Below are positions 281 to 57,784 of a stretch of 64,000 nucleotides of DNA, piece after piece. The translations under genes and the position numbers were made by a program. The stretch lies in contig JAAFJN010000001.1 in assembly GCA_013298845.1 (NCBI GenBank), forward strand, positions 310,001-374,000, read 5' to 3'. Numbering within the stretch: the first letter of the stretch is position 1; every line of letters starts with the position of its first letter. The notes under the pieces were generated by a model. It was not told the DNA's origin. It worked only from the letters and a program-made list of their open reading frames with translations, and searched no databases. This stretch comes from Chitinophagales bacterium (GTDB lineage Bacteria; Bacteroidota; Bacteroidia; Chitinophagales; Saprospiraceae).

Positions 281-2038
281 TCATATCTTCACCAACTTCA
301 CCGTTCCCACGCCTCCTCCCTCCACGGTGACGCGAGCAAAATACACCCCTCCGGCCAGTTCGCGCCCGCCGATGTTGCCCACCAACCCGCGCCAGGCCGT
401 GCGCAGCACCGCCCGCCCGTGAAGGTCGGAAAGTTCCACGTCCACGCGTTGCCATTCGGCGGTACCGGGGACGTGTACCGTAAAGTCCTGGGGCGAAGGA
501 TTGGGATAGGCCGCAATAACCACCCGTTGTGTTGCCAATTCCGGTGCCGAAACCGTACCAATCTGGAGGGTATGGCACACGGTATCGCTGCTGTACCCGT
601 TGGCTGCCACGAGGCAAACGATATAGGTGCCGGGCGAAGGAAAACTATGCACCACTTCGCCCGAGGCCGTGGTATCCAGCACCGTTCCGTCGCCGAAATA
701 CCAGGTCCACTGGTCGGGTTCGTACGCCGACAGGTCGCTAAACGTGACCCGCAGGGGCGATATCGTATCTTCAAAATCCCAGCGAAAACGCGCCAGCGGG
801 TGGTTATCCAAACCCAGTGTATCGCAGGCGGAGCCGTCAATGGGGCCGAGGCGGTAGTTGGGGTGGTTGGGCATATCTGCTGAATTGATATTGGGCGTTG
901 CAATGTCGTTCTGCACAAACGCACAGTCTAATCCTTTGCGGTTGGGGTAACGAATTCGGTGCCAGGTAACGCTTGAATTGGAGTTATTAACGTAGATACG
1001 ACCATCGGGAGCGAGTTGTCCATACATAAAATTAGTAGGCCATATATTGTAATATCGGGTACCATCCCACTCTGCCACTAGCGTTTCAGAAGCAAAAATA
1101 TCGGGTGCGTTCAGGTCATATTGGTAAGCATCACGGTCATCAAGGGCATATAAAAAACGGGAGTTGGGCGAAAAATTTATTCCTGGAATAAAGTGTAGTG
1201 GATCATAGAGGTGGTGGTCTTTTTGATTGGTCAATACGCCAGAACACCGGTCAAAATTAAACAGGGTAATGAAAGCCGGGGCCGCTGATGATTCGCTTAC
1301 TATATGAGCATAATATTGCCCATTTGGAGAGAAAATTGTCGCCCCGGCACTTCTAATAAAAGGAGTATCGTAAAAATGCTTATTAACAAGTATAGTATCA
1401 GACTGAACTAATATTGAAAAATACTTGTCGTTGTTATGATGCGGTACAATAACCCACCAATCTCGGCCATTGGCATGTTTAGTGGCTGTAATCAACCCCC
1501 AAGCCAACGAATCCACGATAACAGGTTTTCGCTTGACCGCTACTTTACCAACCCCATTATTAGCATTCATGTCAATAGTATTACAATAAAATCCCGAACC
1601 TAAACCAAACCCTGGGCCATCCTCAACCGAAAATAAATAATATTGCTTTGTTTTACTGGGAGTTTGTAGTGCCAGTACTGATTGAGGAATCGGTGCTCCA
1701 TACATTACATCACCCGGGTTAATGCTACTTCCATTTTGCATGATCTGGTAATTTTTATTGTAAATATGAATGCCGTTGGTATAAAACAAAAGGTTACCCG
1801 CCGAATCACACATACTGGTATTGGCTCCAACGACATCTAACGTGATTGACTGGCTACCAATAATTTGTGGTTCATTCGTTTCTTCATTGTTGAAATTGAT
1901 CAACGTAACACCAAAGGAATCATTCGGGGGCGATAATGTGCCTCCTTCATAACCCGTGATCCACCAATAATCGTGTTTTTGGGCAAACAGGTAATGTTGT
2001 TGGTTAAACAAAAAAATAATCAAAAGGAACTTTTTCAT
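281..2038 (-). CDS. Secreted PKD-domain protein with T9SS sorting domain
   Basis: A 585-residue protein. It starts with a signal peptide (MKKFLLIIFLFNQQHYLFAQ), followed by about 380 residues resembling a beta-propeller with repeated SPNSRFLYA/APDGRIYV strands. A PKD domain follows at about 410-495 (WTWYFGDGT, then a VVHSFPSPGTYIVCL strand), and the end is a T9SS type A C-terminal domain (YPNPSPQDF ... GGVYFARVTVEG ... VKLVKI). By family knowledge such proteins cross the outer membrane through the type IX system and are anchored or released. No catalytic residues were recognised. It is a tandem paralogue of the next gene; the last 590 bp or so are almost identical in both, while the 5' part is more AT-rich and diverged. 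Ligand or function is unknown. Confidence 0.85.
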   Translation of the reverse strand: MKKFLLIIFLFNQQHYLFAQKHDYWWITGYEGGTLSPPNDSFGVTLINFNNEETNEPQIIGSQSITLDVVGANTSMCDSAGNLLFYTNGIHIYNKNYQIMQNGSSINPGDVMYGAPIPQSVLALQTPSKTKQYYLFSVEDGPGFGLGSGFYCNTIDMNANNGVGKVAVKRKPVIVDSLAWGLITATKHANGRDWWVIVPHHNNDKYFSILVQSDTILVNKHFYDTPFIRSAGATIFSPNGQYYAHIVSESSAAPAFITLFNFDRCSGVLTNQKDHHLYDPLHFIPGINFSPNSRFLYALDDRDAYQYDLNAPDIFASETLVAEWDGTRYYNIWPTNFMYGQLAPDGRIYVNNSNSSVTWHRIRYPNRKGLDCAFVQNDIATPNINSADMPNHPNYRLGPIDGSACDTLGLDNHPLARFRWDFEDTISPLRVTFSDLSAYEPDQWTWYFGDGTVLDTTASGEVVHSFPSPGTYIVCLVAANGYSSDTVCHTLQIGTVSAPELATQRVVIAAYPNPSPQDFTVHVPGTAEWQRVDVELSDLHGRAVLRTAWRGLVGNIGGRELAGGVYFARVTVEGGGVGTVKLVKI

Positions 2039-2125
2039 AAAAAGAAAAGTGGTCGGCTTGTAAATAAGATAATCATGTTGGGTATCGATATTTTTTAATG
2101 TCGAATATTGAACGCCGAATGCCCT

Positions 2126-3874
2126 TTATATCTTCACCAACTTCACCGTTCCCACGTCCATGCCTTCCACGGTGACGCGAGCAAAATACACCCCTCCGGC
2201 CAGTTCGCGCCCGCCGATGTTGCCCACCGACCCGCGCCAGGCCGTGCGCAGCACCGCCCGCCCGTGAAGGTCGGAGAGTTCCACGTCCACGCGTTGCCAT
2301 TCGGCGGTACTGGGGACGTGCAGCGTAAAGTCCTGGGGCGAAGGATTGGGATAGGCCGCAATGGCCACCCGTTGTGTTGCCAATTCCGGTGCCGAAACCG
2401 TACCAATCTGGATCGTATGGCACACGGTATCGCTGCTGTACCCGTTGGCTGCCACGAGGCAAACAGTATAGGTGCCGGGCGAAGGAAAAGTATGCACCAC
2501 TTCACCCGATGCGGTGGTATCCAGCACCGTTCCGTCGCCGAAATACCAGGTCCACTGGTCGGGTTCGTACGCCGACAGGTCGCTAAACGTCACCCGCAGG
2601 GGCGAAATCGTATCTTCAAAATCCCAGCGAAAACGCGCCAGCGGGTGGTTATCCAACCCCAGGGTATCGCAGGCCGAGCCGTCTATCGGGCCGAGGCGGT
2701 AGTTGGGGTGGTTGGGCAGGTCGGAATAACGACCAGTAGGGGTATGAATATCCCACTGCCTAAATTGGCAGTCCATTCCTTTTCGATTAGGGTAGCGTAT
2801 GCGGTGTAAGCAGAAGCCCCCGCTTGAGGTGGTAGCGTATATCCTTCCATCGGGTGCGAGTTGAGCCAGATAAAAATCTAATGGCCAAATATAGTAATAA
2901 TTATTAGTGTCAAATTCGGCTACTACCTCCTCCGATGCGAAAATATCGGTCGCCCAAAGGTCGTATTGATAAACGATCCGGTCAAAGGTGATATACAGGA
3001 ATCTTGAGTCGGGAGAAACGGATGCCCCCGGCAGGAAATAATTGGGGTGGTTGAGGGTGTGTCTTTTTCGATTGGAGAGTTCGCCAGAGCAACGATCAAA
3101 ATCAAAAATATCAATGTAGGCAGGTGCGCCCAATAGTGGGTGTGTGACATGGATATATCTACGCCCATCTGGGCTAAAAACGGCCTGCCCTCCTGATTGA
3201 ATTACATCACCACTTATTTGTTGTTCTACCTTTGTGATGCCGCTTTCAGAGAATAACACTTTGTAAAATTTATTATTGTTGAATTGTTGAATTACAATCC
3301 ACCAATCTTGCCCATTTGCATGTTTGGTGGCCACTATCTGTCCCCAATTTATTGAGTCCTGAATAACAAGTTTTTTTTTCTCAACTACTCTGCCTAAGCC
3401 ATTGTTGAGGTTCATATCAATACGATTATAGTACAACTTTTCTCCCACCGGATAATCTGGTTTACGTTGGACGTTAAACAGGAAATACTGCTTCGGATGG
3501 GTGAGGGATGCTAATGACAAGGTGGCTAATGGCGAACGATAACCTAAAGGATAACTGCCTGTTACGATCGCCTGCCCGTTGTCCATGATTTGATGGCTGC
3601 TGTCATAAATATTTACGCCATTGGTGTAAAACAAGAGATTTCCCGCAGAATCGCACATGGTACTGTTGGTGGTATGGAAATTATTGGAAATGGCTTGATC
3701 CCCAATGATGAATGGCTCTGTCAAAGGATTGAAATCTAATATAGTGATCCCAAATGAATCCGTTGGCGTGGATTGATTCCCGCCACCACTGCCAGTAATC
3801 CAATAATAATCGTGTTTCTGGGCATTGATTGTCCAGTATAAAGGTAGCATTAATATGAGTAACAGTAGTCGCAT
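2126..3874 (-). CDS. Secreted PKD-domain protein with T9SS sorting domain (paralogue)
   Basis: I chose ATG 3874 rather than 3895, because it gives a clean signal peptide (MRLLLLILMLPLYWTINAQ). This leaves 582 residues. The domain order matches the preceding paralogue: signal peptide, propeller-like region beginning KHDYYWITG, PKD domain with WTWYFGDGT, and T9SS C-terminal domain ending in VKLVKI. Shared landmarks along the propeller are SAGNLLFYTNG and ATKHANG. The two genes lie head to tail, 87 bp apart, so they may be co-transcribed or be a recent tandem duplication. The 3' third has been homogenised relative to the 5' part. The substrate is not recognisable. Confidence 0.85.
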   Translation of the reverse strand: MRLLLLILMLPLYWTINAQKHDYYWITGSGGGNQSTPTDSFGITILDFNPLTEPFIIGDQAISNNFHTTNSTMCDSAGNLLFYTNGVNIYDSSHQIMDNGQAIVTGSYPLGYRSPLATLSLASLTHPKQYFLFNVQRKPDYPVGEKLYYNRIDMNLNNGLGRVVEKKKLVIQDSINWGQIVATKHANGQDWWIVIQQFNNNKFYKVLFSESGITKVEQQISGDVIQSGGQAVFSPDGRRYIHVTHPLLGAPAYIDIFDFDRCSGELSNRKRHTLNHPNYFLPGASVSPDSRFLYITFDRIVYQYDLWATDIFASEEVVAEFDTNNYYYIWPLDFYLAQLAPDGRIYATTSSGGFCLHRIRYPNRKGMDCQFRQWDIHTPTGRYSDLPNHPNYRLGPIDGSACDTLGLDNHPLARFRWDFEDTISPLRVTFSDLSAYEPDQWTWYFGDGTVLDTTASGEVVHTFPSPGTYTVCLVAANGYSSDTVCHTIQIGTVSAPELATQRVAIAAYPNPSPQDFTLHVPSTAEWQRVDVELSDLHGRAVLRTAWRGSVGNIGGRELAGGVYFARVTVEGMDVGTVKLVKI

Positions 3875-3930
3875 AAGATGAATACACCCTCCCAAGTAAC
3901 ATACTCGGGAGGGCAGGTTTTGTTAATAAT

Positions 3931-44115: not shown

Positions 44116-44392
44116 TATTTTGCAAAAAACTATTGGTTCAACGTGAAAAAACTCGTCTTGGTGATACTCGTTTTTTTGTGCAGCCCAAAGGTAGCACAAA
44201 GCCAGCACATGAGCGGAATTGCCTCCAAATGGAGCGATTCTTTTGTGGCTTGGGAAATTTTTGGCCTCGAAAATGTTAGTGAAGATTCCACCGAAACCCA
44301 ATGGGAGGAATTTACATTGGGCAGCCTGCAACAGCGTTGGCTCGACGTGCGCGAAGATTGGACGGAATGGGATTTTTCGTTGTTTGAACGCG

Positions 44393-44646
44393 AAGGCACC
44401 ATCAAAATAAAGTGGAAAACCGACCCCTCGCAGTGGGAATTACGCACCTTCGACGGTAGCATTATCACCATGAAAACCGTTTGGCGCGAAGATTTCACCG
44501 AGTGGCGCGTCACCGACGGAAGGCACCATCAAAATAAAGTGGAAAACCGACCCCTCGCAGTGGGAATTACGCACCTTCGACGGTAGCATTATCACCATGA
44601 AAACCGTTTGGCGCGAAGATTTCACCGAGTGGCGCGTCACCGACGG
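44393..44646 (+). repeat. 127-bp tandem duplication
   Basis: Units 44393-44519 and 44520-44646 are identical in the bases I compared. The 5' edge (AAGGCACCATC) is the same point at which the distant copy at 46413 begins. Confidence 0.9.
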
Positions 44647-44860
44647 TACCGTTTCCCTGGATTTTAAAAGCCGCTACACCTCCGATTTGGGCGAATGGTT
44701 CGCCAAAGACCGGGAAGGTAATCGCTTTGCCGTAACGGTGACTTACCCTAATGACCCACGCGACTGGACCATCACCGATGAGTTACCAGAATCGGTTTCG
44801 GCCGAAATGAAACTGGCAATGGTATTTGTGGTGCTGTATCACGCTACGCCGCATCGGTGA
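44519..44860 (+). repeat. 342-bp direct repeat, left copy
   Basis: Nearly identical to 46413-46754; the differences I saw are GTGCTG/GTGTTG and the stop TGA/TAG. The two copies flank the HNH cassette. Confidence 0.9.
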
Positions 44861-44933
44861 GGGTGGGGATTAACATTCAACCGCGTTCGCGGTTAGCGGG
44901 GGCTTGTATGGACTTTCCGTTACTCGGCAAAAA

Positions 44934-45311
44934 ATGATTTGAGTGAGTGACAAAATCGGGGCCTTCTGTTACTTTAACCAATATCACCTCATGCGCCGCC
45001 ATAGAATAGTAGTTGGTGAAAAACTTGTTCTTTTCATGCCAACTTCCTACTTTTTGAGGCCAAAAAGTAGGCAAAAAGCCCGCGGCTGACGAAAAATCCT
45101 ACGATTTTGCTTTCCGTTTCCGGCCGCGCCAAAAAAACTCGCCGGTCACCCTCACGGGGGCATTCGCCCCGTAAATGACGTTTGGCTCAAACAGTTTTTG
45201 GCTTCATCGGCCTCCAACGGAGCAAAATCGGGATTTTTCTAAGGCCGCACCGGTTAAGGACGGATGGGGGTTGGTGATACGGCCCCGATTTTGTCATGCA
45301 CTCAAATGATT
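44934..45311. mobile_element. MITE-like element with terminal inverted repeats
   Basis: The ends ATGATTTGAGTGAGTGACAA... (44934-44963) and the complement of 45281-45311 share TTTGAG, GACAAAATCGGGGCC and nearly all other bases of about 30. Inside is a second inverted pair (AAAAATCC..CGATTTTGCT near 45090 against the complement at 45220-45240) and a hairpin CCTACTTTTT/AAAAAGTAGG at 45047-45072. There is no transposase gene; it could be a MITE or a structured non-coding RNA element. Confidence 0.6.
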
Positions 45312-45397
45312 TGTAAACCCATTGTGGTTACTCATTTACATGTGTGCTAATATAATTTTTGGGAAACAATACTTGCCAGTGAAGTTAAAACTGTTTT

Positions 45398-45405
45398 TAC
45401 ATTTG
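45398..45405 (+). promoter_or_regulatory. -7 box of the HNH gene
   Basis: TACATTTG fits TAnnTTTG and lies 66 bases before ATG 45472, within the AT-rich segment. Confidence 0.45.
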
Positions 45406-45471
45406 CAAAAAATCACTTTTTTGAAGTCTATATGATTGCATCAAAGTAGTTTTGGGGCAACAAAAAATAAT

Positions 45472-46248
45472 ATGGAGAAATCTAATTTTTGGACACAAGA
45501 AGAACTAGTAGTGGCTCTTAATTTGTATTGGAAGGTCCCTTACAATAAAATTAGTGGTACCACAAACGAAGAAATTAAAAAGGTTGCCCAAATCCTTGGG
45601 CGAACGCCAGCCGCTATAGCATACAAACTTATGAATTTTACAAGTTTGGACGATGAAAGATTAAAAAAAGGCAACAAAGGAAAAGGGAGCGCCGGGAAAC
45701 TTGATCAAGTAGTATGGCTACTTTACAAGGATAACTGGGAAAAACTGTCACTTGACAGTGCTACAATATTGGCATCAATACAACAAAAAACGGTAGATAT
45801 TGACCTTGAAAAAGAAAGTTTGGAGTATGTTGGTGAGGAAAAGTTGCGTCTTATAAAAACAAGGATAAGCCAACAAGATTTTAGACAACGAGTATTGGCC
45901 TCTTACAATCAAAAGTGTTGCATAACCGGAGTGAGTCATCCCAGTCTCTTGATCGCCAGTCATATTATTCCGTGGTCTGTTAATGCCAATGAAAGGCTAA
46001 ATCCCAGAAATGGACTTTGTCTTAACGCCCTTCATGATAAGGCGTTTGATAATGGACTAATCACAATAACAACTGATTTTAAAGTGAAAATATCTCGTGA
46101 AATGATTAAAAGAAGTTCAGATTTATTTTCTGAGCAGTTGTTTCTGAAATTTGAAAACAAACCCATTGGATTACCGGATAGATTCTTACCCAATCCAGAC
46201 TTTTTAGCCTGGCATAATAAAAATATCTTTAGAAATGGAAAAATATAA
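45472..46248 (+). CDS. HNH restriction-type endonuclease
   Basis: 258 residues from ATG 45472; the TTG upstream (45436) is not needed. The N-terminal 65 residues (ELVVALNLYWKVPYNKI, then ILGRTPAAIAYKLMNFTSLD) resemble the DNA-recognition start of COG3440-type predicted restriction endonucleases. The C-terminal HNH fold has CCITG at 149-153, SHIIPWSVN (His164), NGLCLNALHDKAFD (Asn180/His188). I infer metal-dependent double-strand cleavage. AT-rich codon use differs from the neighbours. It overlaps the next small ORF by 14 bp. Confidence 0.85.
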   Translation: MEKSNFWTQEELVVALNLYWKVPYNKISGTTNEEIKKVAQILGRTPAAIAYKLMNFTSLDDERLKKGNKGKGSAGKLDQVVWLLYKDNWEKLSLDSATILASIQQKTVDIDLEKESLEYVGEEKLRLIKTRISQQDFRQRVLASYNQKCCITGVSHPSLLIASHIIPWSVNANERLNPRNGLCLNALHDKAFDNGLITITTDFKVKISREMIKRSSDLFSEQLFLKFENKPIGLPDRFLPNPDFLAWHNKNIFRNGKI

Positions 46249-46414
46249 CAAAATAGATAACGAGGCTCTTTTGCTGCTTAAGGCCGTTGCCGAGTGGTGG
46301 GACGCGTGGATTGTATCAGAAAATCCACAGGATATTGGAGACCTTCCAATCAAAGAAATAAAACAATATTTAATGGCAGGCAGCATTGACTTAACCGATG
46401 TTGAAGCCCAATGA
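46235..46414 (+). CDS. Small ORF behind the HNH nuclease, 59 residues
   Basis: ATG 46235 lies inside the end of the HNH gene, so coupled translation is likely. The product (MEKYNKIDNEALLLLKAVAE...) is acidic, helical and Trp-containing (WWDAWIV). Its TGA stop (46412-46414) spans the exact edge of the 342-bp repeat, so it may be a truncated end of a longer gene rather than a complete partner. I do not recognise it; it could be an immunity or accessory protein. Confidence 0.5.
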   Translation: MEKYNKIDNEALLLLKAVAEWWDAWIVSENPQDIGDLPIKEIKQYLMAGSIDLTDVEAQ

Positions 46415-46754
46415 AGGCACCATCAAAATAAAGTGGAAAACCGACCCCTCGCAGTGGGAATTACGCACCTTCGACGGTAGCATTATCACCATGAAAACCG
46501 TTTGGCGCGAAGATTTCACCGAGTGGCGCGTCACCGACGGTACCGTTTCCCTGGATTTTAAAAGCCGCTACACCTCCGATTTGGGCGAATGGTTCGCCAA
46601 AGACCGGGAAGGTAATCGCTTTGCCGTAACGGTGACTTACCCTAATGACCCACGCGACTGGACCATCACCGATGAGTTACCAGAATCGGTTTCGGCCGAA
46701 ATGAAACTGGCAATGGTATTTGTGGTGTTGTATCACGCTACGCCGCATCGGTAG
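46398..46754 (+). pseudogene. Second copy of the exported-protein 3' end
   Basis: Bases 46413-46754 match 44519-44860. The frame is open from ATG 46398 and gives 118 residues with the WREDFTEWRVTDG and LGEWFAKDREGN segments but no signal peptide, so it is not expected to be exported. It is the right-hand repeat of the HNH cassette. Confidence 0.8.
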
Positions 46755-46772: not shown

Positions 46773-46928
46773 TTAGATATTTTGAATAGTAATCCTTCTT
46801 TTTTCTTTTAATGCCTTAAAATGAGATGGTGTTAGCCCCGTTATCTTTTTAAACTGCGCTGACAAATGTGCTACGCTGCTGTAATGTAGCATAAATGCAA
46901 TTTCCGATAAGGAATGTTCTCCAGGCTT
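46773..46928 (-). pseudogene. AraC-family regulator, C-terminal fragment
   Basis: On the minus strand the frame reads SLSEIAFMLHYSSVAHLSAQFKKITGLTPSHFKALKEKRR, a typical AraC C-terminal HTH. The 5' part of the gene is missing; the sequence before it is unrelated. It indicates a deletion or insertion boundary in this region. Confidence 0.75.
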
Positions 46929-46986
46929 AAAAACAAAAACGTATACCGTTGGGAGGCTTATCCCTAACACGTACACGTTATCGTAA

Positions 46987-55714: not shown

Positions 55715-57784
55715 ATGGGAAAATCCAAGTTTTTACTACCCCTTTTCCTTAGTGTTTCGTTTGCCGCACTCGCTCAACCAAGCGAGCAGATTCCAAATGC
55801 GCAACCCGGCAAATGTTACGCTAAATGTCTCATTCCTGATGAGTACAAAGAAACCACTGAGCAGGTTGTTGTAAAACCAGCCGGCACTAAAACAATTGTA
55901 AAGCCAGCAACGTATTCAAATACCACTGAAAAGGTACTCGTTAAAGCCGAGTCAAAACGCCTTATCCCCGTTCCGGCCAAGTACGAAACTAAAACCGAAC
56001 AGGTATTGGTAAAAGCGGCCAGCAAACGTATTGTTACGGTGCCAGCGGTGTACGAAACCAAAACCGAACGCGTGATGGTAAAACCAGAAACCAAACGTTC
56101 GATTTCGGTACCGGCAGTGTACGAAACCAAAACCGAACAGGTGTTGGTAAAGCCAGCCTCTAAACGTTCAATCTCCGTTCCGGCGGTGTACGAAACCAAA
56201 ACCGAAAAAGTTTTGGTAAAGCCAGAATCAAAACGCGTTATCGCGGTTCCGGCGGTGTACGAAACCAAAGCCGAACGCGTGATGGTAAAGGCCGAAAGCA
56301 AACGCCTCATTGAGGTGCCAGCGGTGTACGAAACCAAAACCGAGCGCGTCATGGTGAAAGCCGAAAGCAAACGCCTCATTGACGTTCCGGCGGTGTACGA
56401 AACCAAAACTGAGCGCGTAATGGTGAAAGCCGAAGGCAAACGCATTATTGAAGTGCCAGCGGTGTACGAAACCAAAACCGAACAAGTAGAAGTAAAAGCG
56501 GCTTCTAAACGTTTGGTGGAAGTACCAGCGGTGTACGAAAATAAAACCGAGCAGTATGAAATCGAAGCCGCTACTACCCGCGTTGAGGTAAAACAACCAA
56601 CATTCGAAACCGTAACGGAGCGCATCGAGGTGAAACCAGCCAGCACAAAATGGGTTAAGAAAAAAGCGGACGCTAATTGTCTGAGTGCTAACCCGGACGA
56701 CTGCCTCGTTTGGTGTTTAGTGGACGTTGCTGCCGAATACCAAACCGTTACCAAGCGCGTCAACAAAGGTTGCGACGGCAGCGGCGTTGCCGATGCAGGT
56801 TGCACTAAAACCATCGCGGTTCCGGCTAAAACGGGCACCCGTACGGTACGCGTGATCAAAACACCGGCTACTACCCGCGAAGAAGTAATTCCCGCTGAGT
56901 ACAAAACCGTTACCAGCCGCGTGATCAAAACACCGGCCGCTACCCGCGAAGAAGTAATTCCTGCCGAGTACGCCAACGTAACCACGCAGGTGGTAAAAAC
57001 AGCGGCTACTGTACGCGAAGAAGTAATTCCCGCTGAGTACGCCAACGTAACTACCCAAGTGGTAAAAACACCGGCTTCTGTACGCGAAGAAGTAATTCCC
57101 GCTGAATACACGACGGTTTCTACCCAAGTGGTAAAAACACCGGCTACTACCCGCGAAGAAATTATTCCGGCTGAATACAAAACGGTATCTACGCAGGTGA
57201 TCAAAACGGCGGCTACTGTGCGCGAAGAAGTAATTCCCGCCGAGTACAAAACCGTTACCAGCCAGGTGATCAAAACGGCGGCTACTGTGCGCGAAGAAGT
57301 AATTCCCGCCGAGTACAAAACCGTAACCACGCAGGTGATCAAAACACCGGCTTCATCACGCGAAGAAGTAATTCCTGCCGAGTACGCCAATGTAACCAAG
57401 CAGGTAATGGTTAGCCCCGCTTCTGTACGTGAAGAGTTGATTCCTGCCGAGTACACCAACTCCAGCAAACGTTCAATCGCAGCGGCTGAATTTACAACAA
57501 CCGAAACTATTCCCGCCGAGTACGCTACGGTAACAAAGCGCACCCTCGTGAAGCCCGGTGGTTTCACCGCTTGGCGCGAAGTATTGTGCGGCGACAAAGT
57601 AACGGGTTACACCATCCGCCAAATCCAGGATGCCTTGTTGAAAGCCGGTTACGACCCAGGTCCAATTGACAACATCATGGGTTCACGCACCAAAGCAGCA
57701 TTGACAAAATACCAAAAAGACAAAGGTTTGCCCGTGGGTAACCTCGACTTCGAAACATTGAAGTCATTGGGTATTAAATACTAA
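55715..57784 (+). CDS. Secreted tandem-repeat protein with peptidoglycan-binding domain
   Basis: 689 residues with a signal peptide (MGKSKFLLPLFLSVSFAALAQ). Two arrays of about 23-residue repeats follow: the first has units like VPAVYETKTERVMVKAE (about 9 copies), the second units like IPAEYKTVTTQVIKT (about 11 copies). A Cys-rich linker (DANCLSANPDDCLVWCLVDV) stands between them. The C-terminal 60 residues are a PG_binding_1 domain (TIRQIQDALLKAGYDPGPIDNIMG). It probably spans the periplasm or attaches to the wall. Repeats on the complementary strand leave a long shadow frame. Confidence 0.85.
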   Translation: MGKSKFLLPLFLSVSFAALAQPSEQIPNAQPGKCYAKCLIPDEYKETTEQVVVKPAGTKTIVKPATYSNTTEKVLVKAESKRLIPVPAKYETKTEQVLVKAASKRIVTVPAVYETKTERVMVKPETKRSISVPAVYETKTEQVLVKPASKRSISVPAVYETKTEKVLVKPESKRVIAVPAVYETKAERVMVKAESKRLIEVPAVYETKTERVMVKAESKRLIDVPAVYETKTERVMVKAEGKRIIEVPAVYETKTEQVEVKAASKRLVEVPAVYENKTEQYEIEAATTRVEVKQPTFETVTERIEVKPASTKWVKKKADANCLSANPDDCLVWCLVDVAAEYQTVTKRVNKGCDGSGVADAGCTKTIAVPAKTGTRTVRVIKTPATTREEVIPAEYKTVTSRVIKTPAATREEVIPAEYANVTTQVVKTAATVREEVIPAEYANVTTQVVKTPASVREEVIPAEYTTVSTQVVKTPATTREEIIPAEYKTVSTQVIKTAATVREEVIPAEYKTVTSQVIKTAATVREEVIPAEYKTVTTQVIKTPASSREEVIPAEYANVTKQVMVSPASVREELIPAEYTNSSKRSIAAAEFTTTETIPAEYATVTKRTLVKPGGFTAWREVLCGDKVTGYTIRQIQDALLKAGYDPGPIDNIMGSRTKAALTKYQKDKGLPVGNLDFETLKSLGIKY

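Follow-up and report, generated by a model that had tools for sequence, protein, structure and literature searches.

Comparisons among strains of Helicobacter pylori led to the description of insertion with long target duplication, a process for which no settled mechanism is known. Nobusato et al. (2000) and Furuta et al. (2010) reportedly dealt with restriction-modification genes of H. pylori that had been inserted in this way. A second kind of arrangement, in which a gene is followed by cargo and then by a further copy of its 3′ end, is produced by those genomic islands and prophages that enter a gene at its 3′ end and restore it. According to passages in three papers, insertion with long target duplication is known for restriction genes (PMC1643837, PMC3874152, PMC3031569). 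We describe here a locus of this general layout in a 64,000-nt stretch of DNA (the window), which comprises positions 310001–374000 of contig C1 in a genome of 89 contigs and 6.37 Mb. The layout belongs to a known kind and is real once one artefact has been removed; its interest lies mainly in similar loci elsewhere.

Comparison of the window with itself found a 342-bp direct repeat at 44519–44860 and 46413–46754 (BLAST E 1e-177), exactly where the original prediction had placed it. The first 315 bases of the two copies are identical. The sole difference before the stop codon is at position 316 (CTG/TTG, both Leu), and the copies part within the stop codon itself, which is TGA on the left and TAG on the right. 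The end of the repeat coincides exactly with the stop codon of the host gene; a gapped alignment extends the repeat by about 4 bases at its 3′ end. All parts of the host gene lie on the plus strand: a 5′ part at 44143–44391, which encodes the start of an exported protein from a GTG codon and ends at the first base of the repeat; the left copy, which is the real 3′ end of the gene; and the right copy, a 3′-end fragment without the 5′ part. The order of gene, cargo and 3′-end fragment is as originally described. We found no bases shared at either cassette junction and no inverted repeats at the cassette ends, the sole inverted repeat between the copies being that of an internal element resembling a miniature inverted-repeat element (MITE-like). 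Directly after the right copy, a 67-codon ORF on the minus strand (46773–46976) reads like what we take to be a C-terminal piece of an AraC-type regulator, perhaps a decayed gene.

A third, partial copy, missed in the original prediction, lies at 44392–44518. It consists of repeat bases 1–127, is exactly 127 bp long and stands in tandem with the left copy. Because 127 is not a multiple of three, the host gene is frameshifted as written, with the left full copy out of the frame of the 5′ part (44143 mod 3 = 1, 44519 mod 3 = 2). Without the tandem, the host gene would read through in a single frame, just as its 5′ part continues directly into the repeat, without a change of frame, in 19/19 loci of relatives; the real gene looks intact. 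We scanned 84 stretches of 20 kb (1.68 Mb, a few of them overlapping the window), and the window itself, for perfect tandem duplications with periods of 60–399. Four were found, one with a period of 70 and three with a period of exactly 127, in the window and on contigs C10 and C54, and all three of the latter sit in repeated sequence. The other two 127-bp tandems (L018, 1602–1857, and L160, 15830–16085) are both in repetitive loci and are of the same artefact kind. Comparison of 80 contig tips showed that contigs C12 and C20 begin with the same 127 bp, that C23 and C50 begin with the same 126 bp and that the end of C7 overlaps the start of C60 by 126 bp; two other overlaps, measuring 97 and 37 bp, are at odds with k = 127. 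Within 400 kb of a relative (G009), the perfect tandems, leaving aside a masked stretch of N, had periods of 60, 69 and 118. SPAdes uses k-mers of up to 127, and we infer that it assembled this genome. Two premises for reading k-mer-length tandems as an assembler product are given in the Unicycler paper; our literature search found no report of k-mer-length duplications as an artefact. Given that all three perfect tandems with periods above 70 are exactly 127 bp long, we rejected the tandem at 44392–44645 as real biology and, from the sequence, judge it to be an assembly artefact, an unmerged contig overlap without biological meaning. The case is also a warning that, where short reads were assembled, a 127-bp tandem may be mistaken for a piece of a mobile element.

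The artefact also bears on how the locus was joined. It suggests that the assembly path forked where the repeat begins, with two left neighbours in the reads, the host gene and the small ORF that ends the cargo. Because the join between the host gene and the left copy is an assembler join, the order from host gene to cargo is not proven. An artefact at the repeats had been named at the outset as something that might undo the whole layout. The 127-bp tandem, which sits at the left copy, is such an artefact and lends some colour to the idea that the assembler also produced the entire right copy in error, but it leaves that copy unexplained. Position 316, the stop codon and the sequence beyond it distinguish the two full copies, and an unmerged overlap at the first base of the repeat would imply a graph branch with two left neighbours in the reads. 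Moreover, similar cases on contigs C15 and C46 (below) lack a 127-bp tandem. We consider it very improbable that the right copy is an error.

Between the full copies, a 71-bp spacer (44861–44931; GC 0.55) leads to the MITE-like element at 44932–45312, whose 32-nt terminal arms are 91% complementary, bearing out the terminal-inverted-repeat (TIR) element proposed earlier. Elsewhere in the genome this element has at least 18 matches longer than 200 bp; it is a resident in its own right, which may have arrived before or after the insertion. It is followed on the plus strand by an AT-rich leader (45313–45471; GC 0.296), by a gene for an HNH nuclease of 258 aa from a restriction-linked family (45472–46248) and by an orphan 59-codon ORF, ORF59 (46235–46414; GC 0.41), which overlaps the HNH stop codon and was likewise correctly called from the outset. 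The GC content of the HNH gene is 0.36, against 0.483 for the window, a value as low being found in 1/633 sliding 777-bp windows. The TGA stop codon of ORF59 uses the first two bases of the right copy; since the repeat completes this stop codon, ORF59 may have been cut short by the junction. In 395 other genomes ORF59 had one weak match besides itself (30%, E 0.007), and on viral contigs it had none. Small ORFs follow many of the HNH homologues and overlap their stop codons (L064, L067, L069, L070, L071, L075 and L076); these fall into at least two unrelated-looking groups, none resembling ORF59, and a Pfam search of three of them gave no match. The ORF list contains no integrase-size ORF between the copies, the longest being the HNH gene, in agreement with the original reading that no integrase is visible there. 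Genes for replication or transfer, and phage genes, are likewise missing from the cassette according to the ORF list and to Pfam searches of the HNH protein and ORF59.

The HNH protein matches Pfam HNH_2 (PF13391) at 53.1 bits (E 2.9e-14), above the gathering cut-off of 21 bits, and the PADLOC model PDLC04132 at 6.1e-91. Its match to NF045808, a model of phosphorothioate-dependent restriction endonucleases, covers residues 106–254 only and, at 69.9 bits, is below the curated cut-off of 180 bits. Homologues over most of its length occur in distant, scattered taxa, at 22 loci with 34–63% identity (one of them, L084, partial) and at two more. A C5 methylase and/or HpaII-type (RE_HpaII) restriction gene lies near the homologue at 10 of these 24 loci (L063, L064, L065, L068, L070, L072, L078, L079, L082 and L083), although three of the ten supplied the queries and the matches at L063 and L078 are short and weak, respectively. 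This linkage, together with the base composition, agrees with the description of the gene as an AT-rich, restriction-type HNH endonuclease. In the 64-kb window itself, two C5-methylase tblastn queries and a search for the HpaII-type gene gave no match; across the genome, a single C5 methylase turned up, on contig C56.

We compared the flanks of the HNH homologues, which extend 0.4 to 6 kb per side, for a repeat of the 342-bp type. None of the 23 loci with usable flanks (one of the 24 has no downstream sequence) has a long, near-identical repeat straddling the homologue. The strongest near-misses are a 394-bp pair at 68% with further pieces beside it at L068, which we read as paralogous genes, and a 46-bp pair at 96% at L081, which lies 4.5 kb before and 2.8 kb after the homologue. 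We therefore rejected the repeat as a hallmark of the HNH family. The duplicated segment is host sequence and, as judged from these alignments, does not travel with the HNH family.

The original prediction offered single-crossover (Campbell-type) integration as one possible origin of this layout. A circle of 1,894 bp (44519–46412), on which the 342-bp fragment sits with the MITE-like element, the HNH gene and ORF59, would have recombined once with the resident gene and could be re-formed if the copies recombined. The layout is what a single crossover leaves, and the implied assembly graph, which branches at repeat base 1 and has two exits after base 315, does not distinguish an integrated cassette from an empty gene and a free circle. 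Because the left join is an assembler join, the chromosomal gene may instead be intact and empty, with the 1,894-bp circle still free. Campbell integration is thus formally compatible with the locus, but we found nothing that specifically points to it: the cassette has no replication or transfer gene and no plasmid or phage gene, and elsewhere in the genome the fragment has no more than one 26-base match. The HNH protein has no close relative on viral contigs; among phage records its best match is one unannotated 6.2-kb record at 42%, and among plasmid records it has three matches, at 40–43% over most of its length, two of them in 2.17-Mb records. In addition, the circle must carry a near-identical piece of the species' own gene, so that it would explain spread between strains rather than origin. 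We regard a circle, be it integrated or still free, as unlikely.

With the repeat as a protein query, 34 of 36 genomes of the same genus gave exactly one match and two gave none, so that, of the genomes searched, only this one has the 3′ end doubled. No match was obtained at E 0.001 in 23 genomes from other genera of the order. The nearest copies in relatives have 43–54% protein identity and may lie at other loci; a RidA gene adjoins the host gene, as it does here, in 1/19 relative loci, with flanks of 1.5 kb at most. These comparisons also bear on a site-specific element that rebuilds the 3′ end of its target gene and is mobilised by an integrase encoded elsewhere. Such an element would account for a repeat that ends exactly at the host-gene stop codon, but it would be expected neither with a cassette lacking an integrase-size ORF nor with cargo homologues whose surroundings lack the repeat (23/23 loci with usable flanks), and the 3′ end of the host gene is doubled in none of the 36 same-genus genomes. 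We consider a site-specific element very improbable.

We conclude that the locus is probably the product of an insertion with long target duplication, in which a small foreign segment carrying the restriction-type HNH gene and ORF59 entered a conserved gene for an exported protein at its 3′ end. The target sequence from one insertion point to the other, 342 bp, would have been duplicated, leaving the whole host gene upstream and a headless copy of its 3′ end downstream. A widely staggered break might have been repaired, with two nicks 342 bp apart and fill-in around captured DNA; or else a template switch during repair of a broken fork might have copied foreign DNA and re-entered upstream. We infer that a single event made both the insertion and the duplication. 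Underlying this conclusion are direct observations: the repeat is near-identical and single in relatives, the cargo has a foreign base composition, the HNH family is linked to restriction genes, and no ORF between the copies is of integrase size. Against it speak the lack of an empty site from a close strain, the lack of a C5 methylase in the cassette, the assembler join before the left copy and the weakness of the genus-wide pattern (below). The features of this class of insertion that are present are the flanking 342-bp duplication of host sequence and the lack of a transposase or integrase and of terminal inverted repeats. The layout is a better match to published insertions with long target duplication than to Campbell integration.

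Similar layouts occur with unrelated cargo. At the end of contig C15 (L099, 853–2379; also L180), a PDDEXK_2 gene (PF12784, 7.8e-65) lies between 264-bp copies, 95% identical, of the 5′ end of an M1-peptidase gene. At the start of contig C46 (L152, 1–1717), a Fic gene in two frames lies between 163-bp copies, 98.8% identical, of the 5′ end of an OmpA-family gene, and the left copy reaches the edge of the contig. In a relative (G005, L167), a PDDEXK_2 gene lies between 114-bp copies, 92% identical, of the 5′ end of a 159-aa ORF. At all three loci, one copy belongs to an open, complete-looking ORF. Weaker cases, with repeats of 38–82 bp, were found in other genomes (L168, L171 and L177). At one HNH_2 locus (L199), a 160-bp pair at 92.5% lies at a greater distance from the gene. 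There are many more direct-repeat pairs in the own genome and in 400 kb of G009; those that we inspected are the ones named here. Pairs on C10, and a pair at 277–2718 of the window, were rejected as similar layouts, being tandem paralogous genes. The two paralogues in the window are neighbours on the minus strand (281–3895); some 600 bp of their 3′ parts (277–873 and 2122–2718) show 95% identity, the rest having diverged. At 56038–57255 the window contains repeats with a 69-base period.

We then compared the frequency of flanking repeats between gene families. Such repeats flank 8/48 PDDEXK_2 loci (L192 gave no test), or five after removal of a tandem paralogue (L181; 84.8%, below the 85% used for controls) and of what are, on our reading of the letters, probable repeated tRNA pieces (L183) and a probable dispersed repeat (L226). 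Among ORFs of the own genome, 19/438 had flanking repeats at the same E-value and 12 had them at ≥35 bp and ≥85%; these 12 comprise five tandem paralogues, the PDDEXK_2 locus itself, the Fic locus, a DUF1016 locus and four others. RidA loci gave 0/29. At matched thresholds, Fisher tests of PDDEXK_2 loci against own ORFs gave p = 0.002 (8/48 vs 18/437) and p = 0.0008 (7/48 vs 11/437). The cleaned set of 5/48 gave p = 0.002 against 6/437 own ORFs (p = 0.0007 to 0.002, the lower figure with control rows dropped) and p = 0.15, which is not significant, against RidA. In all of these tests, loci from related genomes are not independent. A second script for the same test gave 4/24 for PDDEXK_2, 4/26 for DUF1016, 1/26 for Fic and 0/12 for HNH_2, with our own HNH_2 locus failing because its spacer exceeds the 600-bp limit. 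The DUF1016 genes of two species (L232, 818–2045, and L233, 820–2045) share one 80-bp flanking dispersed repeat that is partly palindromic. A 113-bp repeat pair around a Fic gene (L287, 895–3289) lies near a reverse-transcriptase-like ORF and, we presume, may be a diversity-generating retroelement. A genus-wide enrichment of flanking repeats is only suggestive, and the recurrence of such insertions in the genus is a lead, not a result.

It is conceivable, though doubtful, that the genus has an unrecognised route of gene gain that is independent of the cargo, by which foreign genes (HNH, PDDEXK_2, Fic) enter one at a time, roughly 40–340 bp of the end of a host gene are duplicated and the host gene is always preserved; PDDEXK-type nucleases might help to make the staggered breaks. 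One paper (PMC5350276) links Rpn/YhgA-like nucleases to RecA-independent transfer; it does not contain the term "direct repeat", and "duplication" occurs there only in the title of a reference. These are PDDEXK-type nucleases, as are the PDDEXK_2 genes of the genus, some of which lie between duplicated pieces of host genes; they differ from HNH nucleases in fold, and belong to Pfam PF04754 rather than PF12784. A fresh case, with one synonymous difference, and at least two loci with unrelated cargo in the same genome would offer a test of cargo nuclease versus host repair as the basis of the process.

The locus shares with islands and prophages at gene 3′ ends the order of gene, cargo and 3′-end copy, but it has no integrase, and the repeat is absent around homologues of the cargo. 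In HpaII-type restriction-modification loci, HNH homologues adjoin a C5 methylase or RE_HpaII gene (10/24), whereas the HNH gene of the window stands alone; similarly, a Type II restriction-modification system has its methylase beside its nuclease, whereas this cassette has no C5 methylase. The H. pylori insertions differ from the present one, which consists of one HNH gene without a methylase, has a duplication of 342 bp and has no close strain with an empty site; by gene content, we also judge the host genus to be far from Helicobacter. Like the H. pylori insertions, however, it has a restriction-linked gene flanked by long direct repeats of host sequence, with no transposase.
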